From Aurantimicrobium sp. (lineage in GTDB: Bacteria; Actinomycetota; Actinomycetes; Actinomycetales; Microbacteriaceae), in the NCBI GenBank assembly GCA_024644865.1, contig JAHEGZ010000004.1:1-64000 (forward strand): a stretch of DNA of 64,000 bases, given 5' to 3'. Below the pieces are notes generated by a model that saw only the letters and a program-made list of their open reading frames with translations, was not told where the DNA came from and ran no database searches. Below, one piece after another: positions 7,201-9,493 of the stretch. Each line of letters begins with the position of its first letter. Position 1 is the stretch's first letter. A program made the translations under genes and the position numbers.

Positions 7201-7499
7201 GCATTCCCGCACGAGTCGTCAATAAAGTCAGTGAGAAGAGTGGGCAGGCGACCATTGTCGAGCTCATCGACAACAATGAGGTCGATATTGTCATCAATAC
7301 GCCTTCTGGTCGCTCGGCAACTGTCGACGGACACGAGATTCGAACCGCCGCCGTGGCGTCCGACAAACCTCTGTTCACGACGATGGCTCAGGTTTCGGCT
7401 GCTGTAGCGAGTATGGATGTACGACGCGAGGGCTTTAGCGTGACCAGTCTGCAGGAGTACGCGATCGAGCGTGCCGAGAAGTTGGCGGCGCTGTCATGA
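4206..7499 (+). CDS. carB: Carbamoyl-phosphate synthase large subunit
   Basis: Makes carbamoyl phosphate from bicarbonate, two ATP and the ammonia delivered by CarA. 1097 residues, the full two-fold repeated architecture. The first carboxyphosphate half starts at [19 protein letters not shown] (residues about 10-28). The second carbamate-phosphorylating half starts near residue 555 with the matching [18 protein letters not shown]. Both have ATP-grasp regions ([15 protein letters not shown] and [14 protein letters not shown]), and an allosteric MGS-like domain closes the protein (TSGTAEVL region, about 965-1075). It overlaps pyrF by 4 bases. Confidence 0.98.
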
Positions 7500-8332
7500 C
7501 CCAAGGATTCGCAACACGCCTTCAAGCAGCATTCACACAGTACGGGCACCTGTGCGTCGGACTGGATCCGCATCCATTTCTACTGAAACTGTGGGGGCTC
7601 GAAGACTCACCTCGTGGACTCCTCGAAATGTCTCTGCGAGTGCTTGAAGCCTGCTCGGACCAAGTGGGAATCATCAAACCTCAGGTCGCCTTTTACGAGC
7701 GCCATGGGTCTGCCGGTTACAAGGTGCTCGAAGATGTCATTGCGCGCGCTCGAAACGCGGAGCTTCTGGTGATCGCCGACGCTAAGCGGGGAGATATCGG
7801 TTCGACCATGGAGGCGTACGCTGCGACGTGGCTCGGTCAGGGATCCGCACTCGAGGCAGACGCCGTGACCGTCGCGCCCTACCTCGGCGTTGACTCTCTC
7901 GCTGGCACGTTCGACATGGCTGAAGCAAACGGCAAAGGCGTCTTCGTACTGGCCGCGACCTCGAACCCTGAGGCGGCAACACTGCAACGATCGCGTGCAA
8001 TCTCGGGACGAACGCTTGCCGGTCAAGTTGTCGATGACGTCAGCGAAAGGTCACTTCGAATGACAGATGCGGGAGGATTCGGTGTCGTTCTTGGTGCGAC
8101 CCTGCGTCTCGAGGAGTTCGAGATTGATACTTCATCGTGCTATCCAATTCCAGTTCTCGCACCAGGTTTCGGAGTCCAAGGCGCTGCGGTCAAAGATGCC
8201 CAAAGTCTTTTCGGCGCGCTTTCGCAAAACCTCATCGTTGCACAGACACGAAGCATTCTCGAAGCTGGACGCGATGGCGTCGCCGAGGCGGTACGGCGGG
8301 AAGCAGCTGAAACGGCTAACGCGCTTGGCTAG
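7496..8332 (+). CDS. pyrF: Orotidine 5'-phosphate decarboxylase (type 2)
   Basis: Final step of UMP synthesis, decarboxylation of OMP. 278 residues, as expected for the longer type 2 enzymes of actinobacteria. The catalytic segment [11 protein letters not shown] contains the active-site Lys97. An APGFGVQG phosphate-binding segment lies near residue 220. ATG overlaps the carB stop (ATGA). pyrD and pyrE are not in the window. The gene is followed after 7 bases by the fused gmk. Confidence 0.97.
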
Positions 8333-8339
8333 TCGTCCC

Positions 8340-9236
8340 ATGCCCGAGGTCGACCGTCGTGCTGCCGCACGTGCCGCGGTTGCAAAGCGACGAGCTCGCG
8401 CCGAAGTAAAGCGGTCCCTTGCACGCGGTGAACGAACGCCTAGCGACGTTGCCGCAGTTGCTTTCGCTGATTCCCAAGCGGTTGAGGCGAGCATCCGCAT
8501 CACCGAATTCCTCAAGTCACTACCTGCTATTGGGGCAACAAAGCTTGAACCTCTTCTGCAGCGCTTGGGCGTTTCTCCCGTTAAGCGTTTGGGGGGATTG
8601 GGAAAACATCAGCGCACCGCGCTCATGGCTTTTCTTCGCGACTACCAATCACGACGGGGTATCACTGATCGACCGCAGCTCGTTGTTTTGGCTGGCCCAG
8701 CGGGCGTAGGTAAGGGAACCGTAGCTGCGCGCATTCTCGAGTCGTTCCCGTTTGTGCATCTTTCAGTGTCAGCAACTACGCGAAGCCCGCGGCCGGGGGA
8801 GTCTGACGGCGTCAACTACTATTTCGTCGATGAAGATGAGTTTGACGCCCTCATCACGTCAGATCAGCTTTTGGAGTGGGCCACCGTACACAAGACTCAC
8901 CGCTACGGAACACCTCGCCGCCCGGTAGAAACAGCGCTTGAAGATGGTCGACCCGTGCTTTTGGAAATAGACATTCAAGGCGCTCGGCAGGTGAAACTTG
9001 CTATGCCTGAGGCGCGACTAGTCTTTTTACTTCCGCCATCGTGGGATGAGTTGGTGCGTCGCCTCGTCACTCGGGCTACGGAATCACCCGAAGATCAGGC
9101 ACGACGTCTCGAGACTGCCACTCAAGAGCTTGCAGCCCAGCATGAGTTCGACGTTCGCGTTGTGAATGACGACGTAACGCGAGCGGCTGAACTGGTCGTA
9201 GACTTGATGGGAATCAACAAGGAGTCATACGCATGA
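8340..9236 (+). CDS. gmk: Fusion protein: actinobacterial integration host factor (mIHF) domain + guanylate kinase
   Basis: 298 residues from the ATG at 8340, 7 bases after pyrF; the frame stays open upstream to 8067, but that stretch lies inside pyrF and reads as out-of-frame pyrF. Residues 1 to about 105 resemble mIHF, with a basic N-terminal helix ([11 protein letters not shown]), a LPAIGATK...LLQRLGV helix-hairpin-like segment at about 61-78 and [11 protein letters not shown] at 81-91. Residues from about 112 are guanylate kinase: P-loop GPAGVGKGT at 119-127, then [21 protein letters not shown] and [13 protein letters not shown]. Gmk phosphorylates GMP to GDP; mIHF binds DNA and shapes the nucleoid. 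In mycobacteria the two are separate adjacent genes (mihF, gmk), so this is a fusion of neighbours. It overlaps rpoZ by 4 bases. Confidence 0.95.
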
Positions 9237-9493
9237 GCGCAAAGAACAAGGGCATCATCGATCCACCCATCGACCAGCTGCTTTCCAAAGTCGAGTCCAA
9301 ATACGCCCTAGTCATCTTCGCGGCCAAGCGTGCACGCCAGATCAATGACTACTACTCCGATCTACATCAGGGCAGCATGTTCGACAACGTCGGACCGCTC
9401 GTGGACTCGAACATTGACGACAAGCCACTTTCGGTAGCACTTCACGAAATCAGCGCCGACAAGCTCTCGCTGACCCCGCTGGTCGCGCAGTAG
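9233..9493 (+). CDS. rpoZ: DNA-directed RNA polymerase omega subunit
   Basis: 86 residues. It carries the conserved omega core [16 protein letters not shown] at about residues 23-38, in which the small subunit wraps the C-terminal tail of beta-prime and stabilises the enzyme. The gene overlaps gmk by 4 bases, and the gmk-rpoZ-coaBC order is widely conserved, so the call rests on motif plus context. The C-terminal EISADKLSL segment fits actinobacterial forms. Confidence 0.95.

Follow-up and report, generated by a model that had tools for sequence, protein, structure and literature searches.

The mIHF (Rv1388) and sIHF (SCO1480) proteins, represented by the curated model NF041260 (actino_IHF), are free proteins of about 105 aa with a basic first helix and an S13-like H2TH domain, and they are encoded before gmk and rpoZ. 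Passages of PMC10028186 describe mIHF as essential in mycobacteria, with a small amount being enough for growth, and parts of PMC6155035 report that a mihF deletion in Mycobacterium tuberculosis is polar on gmk and rpoZ. According to excerpts of PMC5686395, most actinobacteria show evident inhibition of the guanylate kinase Gmk by (p)ppGpp, with the M. tuberculosis enzyme as an exception; excerpts of PMC6783271 place such inhibition in multiple phyla but not in Proteobacteria. A literature search by titles and opening lines, with most subscription papers outside its scope, returned no paper on a fusion of the two proteins. In term look-ups, the word 'guanylate' was absent from the available portions of PMC3724605 and PMC10028186, as were 'guanylate kinase' and 'gmk' from those of PMC4255298. 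The NF041260 model is of type 'equivalog_domain', which hints that its curators have met the domain inside larger proteins.

The window, which is the whole stretch of 64,000 nucleotides that we analyzed, encodes both proteins in one open frame (Table 1). Like mIHF and sIHF, the encoded protein has the basic first helix and the S13-like H2TH domain, holds the same place before gmk and rpoZ, and scores above the curated cut-off. Unlike these free proteins, it is a 298-aa frame in which the mIHF C-terminus runs into the kinase, and its loop reads KRLGGLG where mIHF and sIHF have RRxRGLG. Compared with M. tuberculosis Gmk (Rv1389), it contains a full-length catalytic domain (50-51% identity over the aligned part) and adds an N-terminal mIHF domain; no free copy of the kinase was found in the genome. 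The start ATG lies 7 bases past the stop of the upstream ORF, which we take to be pyrF, and the TGA overlaps the start of the next ORF, presumably rpoZ (ATGA at 9233-9236).

Table 1. Coordinates of the fused gene, its parts and its neighbors in the window
Feature	Position	Strand	Remarks
pyrF (orotidine 5'-phosphate decarboxylase), name presumed	7496..8332	+	ORF directly upstream of the fused gene
Fused mihF-gmk gene	8340..9236	+	298 aa plus stop
mIHF (actino_IHF, S13-like H2TH) domain	8352..8633	+	residues 5-98; NF041260, PF22525, 6tob, 4itq
Loop KRLGGLG	8583..8603	+	residues 82-88; third Arg of RRxRGLG replaced by Gly85
Linker, with the end of the last mIHF helix	8634..8675	+	residues 99-112
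Guanylate kinase domain	8676..9203	+	residues 113-288; TIGR03263, 1s4q
P-loop GPAGVGKGT	8694..8720	+	residues 119-127
rpoZ (RNA polymerase omega), name presumed	9233..9493	+	first codon overlaps the fused gene's stop

The first-pass annotation had read residues 1 to about 105 as an actinobacterial integration host factor, followed from about residue 112 by a complete guanylate kinase with a P-loop at 119-127. Profile searches of the 298-aa protein bore out both domain assignments, the P-loop lies where stated, and the fusion in the window is confirmed. The mIHF model NF041260 matched with 66.6 bits (cut-off 60; 69.7 bits for the gene in the genome search), and Pfam assigned both the S13-like H2TH family PF22525 (39.6 bits, cut-off 27) and Guanylate_kin. 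The kinase part matched TIGR03263 (guanyl_kin) with 218.2 bits over profile positions 2-176 of 180 (cut-off 160.45). Among solved structures, the first 109 residues matched mIHF (6tob, E 3.1e-12) and SCO1480 (sIHF, 4itq), and the rest matched 1znw and other guanylate kinases.

An AlphaFold model built on an eight-row alignment had a mean pLDDT of 84.9 and consisted of six helices in residues 2-105, a low-confidence linker at 107-110, and then the kinase. Its kinase part superposed on M. tuberculosis Gmk (1s4q) with a Z of 27.0 over 182 residues at 1.9 Å. A fold search with this model returned, among the matches listed, the kinase only and none for the mIHF part, which is no argument against the mIHF domain. 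A model made from the single sequence was poor (pLDDT 46) and was discarded.

We searched 59 relatives, 35 of them from the same family, Microbacteriaceae (f1). The annotation had suggested, without being able to verify it, that related Microbacteriaceae may share the fusion, and they do: both domains lie in one open frame in 33 of the 36 sampled family genomes, window included. An assembly error or frameshift artefact was rejected, since the same one-frame fusion is present in 32 of the 35 others. In one of the three exceptions, G011 (one contig, 86% complete), mihF and gmk do not share a frame, perhaps through a sequencing indel. The remaining two, G012 (1.43 Mb) and G015 (1.46 Mb), have no mIHF match above the S13 level and show the order pyrF-gmk-rpoZ, so that pyrF neighbors gmk there as well. 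These two are sisters in the tree (97, a starred branch) and may branch at the family base; the domain may have been lost either from a gene already fused or before fusion took place. The mIHF domain is therefore dispensable in some family members. The fusion is nevertheless kept in G017, a genome of 0.93 Mb (one contig, 927,303 bases).

In the other families of the order, the two genes are mostly separate neighbors, as the annotation had stated for mycobacteria and as the polar effect of the mihF deletion noted above also indicates for M. tuberculosis. Of the 23 genomes sampled from these families, 21 carry mihF as a gene of its own, upstream of gmk and in the same orientation; the remaining two (G038 and G055, family f4) have no actino_IHF match at E 0.001. 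The separate mIHF proteins of the order score 115-149 bits against NF041260, versus 50-82 bits in the family members.

We also looked for a second copy of either protein in the genome of the window, which is 94.8% complete. The fusion is its only actino_IHF match above the cut-off and the only guanylate kinase found, and the search for a stand-alone mihF turned up none: the only other match, at 16.8 bits, overlaps the ribosomal S13 gene. Of 14 control genomes, one (Corynebacterium glutamicum) has a match above the cut-off of the mIHF model. The S13 gene is represented by two incomplete matches near the ends of G000 contigs C43 and C75, where the assembly is probably broken.

A stand-alone kinase could also be made from an internal start near residue 105. 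In the window, the sole ATG, GTG or TTG between residues 95 and 113 is the codon of M96, which lies inside the last mIHF helix and has no visible ribosome-binding site. Across the 33 fused family members, this interval contains at least one start codon in 14 and none in 19. These counts do not support a conserved internal start, and this check leaves the fusion standing; an internal kinase start may still be used in single genomes.

To see how far the fusion extends, we used the fused alignment as a query against 296 class genomes; fusions here number at least those among the matches listed, and about 180 of the genomes were judged without sequence-level reading. This sample contained 13 other family genomes, of which 12 had matches over both domains and one had its match at a contig end. 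Three of the 12 showed a stop inside the matched stretch, and sequence-level reading placed both domains of these three in one frame. The fusion is thus retained in 34 sampled genera of the family (31 plus three more from the class sample). Among the matches listed, two further families outside the order, f44 and f51, had matches over both domains with no stop. At the sequence level, every sampled f44 genome except G328 is fused (26 of 27). The 14 f51 genomes comprise two fused, seven separate and five with no actino_IHF match at E 0.001 (12 were searched, the other two being fused). Such a match was also lacking in all three f23 genomes and in one of two f55 genomes.

The fusions of f44 and f51 resemble that of the window in domain order, in the downstream rpoZ and coaBC, and in a third loop position that is neither arginine nor lysine. 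All 36 loci read from these two families have both genes downstream on the same strand, and no pyrF was found in any of them. They differ from the window in having their own linkers, in keeping Arg82, and in P-loops such as GPGGVGKST or GPSGVGKSS.

We next determined how the fusions are related with a combined mIHF and Gmk tree of 55 rows of our choosing that have both domains, from which alignment column 85 was left out. It included 11 of the 40 fused f1 rows, and long-branched rows such as G007, G017, G029 and G032 were left out. In this tree the f44 fusions grouped with their unfused relative G328 (SH-aLRT 98), and the f51 fusions with the unfused G299 (SH-aLRT 98). Constraining fusions to one clade was rejected for f1 with f44 (p-AU 0.0143), for f1 with f51 (p-AU 0.00426) and for f44 with f51 (p-AU 0.0369), all values being uncorrected for three tests; the last would fail such a correction. 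The tree of Gmk alone was not decisive as proof of independence: holding f1 and f44 together was not rejected (p-AU 0.35), and the tree with f44 and f51 held together was even better (p 0.582). The trees support separate origins of the fusion in the three families, each time from neighboring genes. Among the 47 separate mihF and gmk pairs read, ten share a frame, and eight of these have a single stop between the open frames, so that the loss of one stop would suffice for a fusion.

These eight pairs, together with a linker of variable length and sequence, are what would be expected if read-through of same-frame neighbors had simply been fixed without gain, the two domains working as they do when separate. 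The loss of the loop arginine without fusion in five of 47 separate mIHF proteins (see below) points the same way. Set against this are the three separate origins, the retention in 34 genera and a parallel loop change, although a test would need more than three events. We regard such a neutral history as possible but doubtful. From the comparisons above, the mIHF-Gmk fusion is a real and long-kept arrangement.

We then compared the two parts of the protein with their separate counterparts. In the kinase, 12 positions are the same in 33 fused and 23 separate Gmk sequences (G119, P120, G124, K125, R148, R151, Y160, E179, D211, R241, R245 and R256), and we take these to be the P-loop lysine and substrate-site residues. 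Position 126 is glycine in 31 of the 33 fused sequences and position 127 is threonine in 32. The resulting GKGT is the P-loop form familiar from adenylate kinases. It occurs in 30 of 33 fused f1 sequences and equally in all 23 separate Gmk of the order, and was thus rejected as a fusion-specific change; f44, f51 and a Mycobacterium MAG have GKST or GKSS. Four positions (227, 253, 274 and 286) passed our thresholds for a consistent difference between the fused and the separate Gmk, and none of them is known to be catalytic.

The mIHF part has changed at its loop. After G011 was dropped on account of its different frames, and with G222, whose gene runs into a contig end, taken as fused, the third loop position held arginine or lysine in none of 68 fused proteins, versus 42 of 47 separate ones. 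The residue is Gly (37), Ser (2) or Ala (1) in the 40 fused f1 proteins, Gln (17), Ala (6) or Gly (3) in the 26 of f44, and Gly in both of f51. The separate proteins have Arg (41), Lys (1) and five exceptions (G037, G231, G307, G171 and G221), the last four of which belong to two f51 genera. The loop arginine can therefore go without fusion, and its absence from four of the seven separate f51 proteins counts against fusion driving the loss. Only two independent pairs fall on starred branches, and with about three fusion events a link between loop and fusion cannot reach significance. In f1, Arg82 has also become lysine in 39 of 40 proteins, and Arg83 is kept in 38 of 40.

In work on M. tuberculosis mIHF, arginines 170, 171 and 173 reportedly matter for DNA binding. 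These are presumably the three loop arginines in the long numbering of that protein, which would fit the 6tob alignment provided that one allows for a four-residue tag and a shift of 85 residues. With the loop altered in each of the 68 fused proteins read, the fused chain need not bind DNA as free mIHF does, and binding may have been altered or lost. Alternatively, the loop arginine may pack close to where the domain ends, a region that the fusion would lengthen; a single JetD-mIHF protein whose mIHF C-terminus is free (see below) keeps this arginine.

Other features of the mIHF part are preserved. Each of the 116 mIHF rows has R17 and R20, and each except the frameshifted G011 has Q91; Arg17, Arg20 and Lys24 of helix 1 are identical across the 68 fused proteins. 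Its mean net charge is +9.1 in f1, +8.8 in f44 and +8.5 in f51, versus +7.8 in separate mIHF. Relative to a same-genus genome, dN/dS was 0.04 in both the mIHF part and pyrF, 0.03 in Gmk and 0.006 in rpoZ, values that are rough because dS was mostly saturated; dN was 0.142 for the mIHF part and 0.057 for Gmk, a 2.5-fold difference. By these rough estimates, both the mIHF part and Gmk are under purifying selection.

The domain could have retired from the nucleoid, no longer binding DNA and being kept for kinase folding, solubility, oligomerization or protein binding. The changes at the third loop position and at Arg82, the low NF041260 scores in the family, and the two family members that manage without the mIHF part are consistent with this. 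The purifying selection and preserved positive charge argue against it, as do the invariant R17, R20 and K24, the Arg83 kept in most f1 proteins, and the retention of the mIHF part in the 0.93-Mb genome. We consider such a retirement unlikely.

The stretch between the domains varies from 8 to 25 residues among the 33 family members. A variable and weakly predicted linker suggests that the two domains would act largely independently. The same properties would suit a precursor in which one chain is cut in the linker to release free mIHF and free Gmk. Inspection of the 33 linkers by eye revealed no common cleavage motif, and we consider a cleaved precursor very improbable.

On balance, we think it rather probable that the single polypeptide joins an mIHF-type nucleic-acid-binding protein to the guanylate kinase of the cell, with the binding part kept but retuned. 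The kinase domain would work normally, and the basic first domain would keep a weak hold on DNA (or RNA) by means of helix 1 (R17, R20 and K24) and the retuned loop. The cell would then produce a low-affinity nucleoid protein and its GMP kinase at a constant ratio of 1:1, and some of its GDP would be synthesized on the nucleoid. It is possible, as the first-pass annotation had proposed, that the kinase is placed on DNA or that compaction is tied to the supply of GTP or (p)ppGpp. If binding and catalysis affect each other, the fusion would link guanine-nucleotide supply directly to the nucleoid. The lineages in which mIHF is welded to a kinase, together with their relatives lacking mIHF, offer natural experiments on the role of mIHF.

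A stronger form of this coupling is a nucleotide-gated nucleoid protein, in which GMP, GDP or (p)ppGpp in the kinase would alter the hold of the H2TH domain on DNA; if so, the chromosome would read guanine-nucleotide status directly. Three lineages share the same design and have lost the same loop arginine, which might over-strengthen or fix DNA binding. We consider such gating distinctly improbable.

Finally, in a phylum sample of 119 genomes (109 from outside the class), we judged mIHF matches by the length of their frames alone. Apart from the window, all of these frames measured at most 249 aa, too short for this fusion, but for that of the third of three mIHF matches in G355 (726 aa). This match belongs to a 717-aa protein (L194:2871-5024, minus strand) with a C-terminal mIHF domain and a JetD_C (Wadjet) domain. 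It matches PF09983 with 42.3 bits at 269-429 and PF22525 with 31.8 bits at 660-708, and its actino_IHF score of 47.2 bits is under the cut-off of 60. In this single protein, the mIHF C-terminus is free and the loop arginine is kept (TLRGLG).
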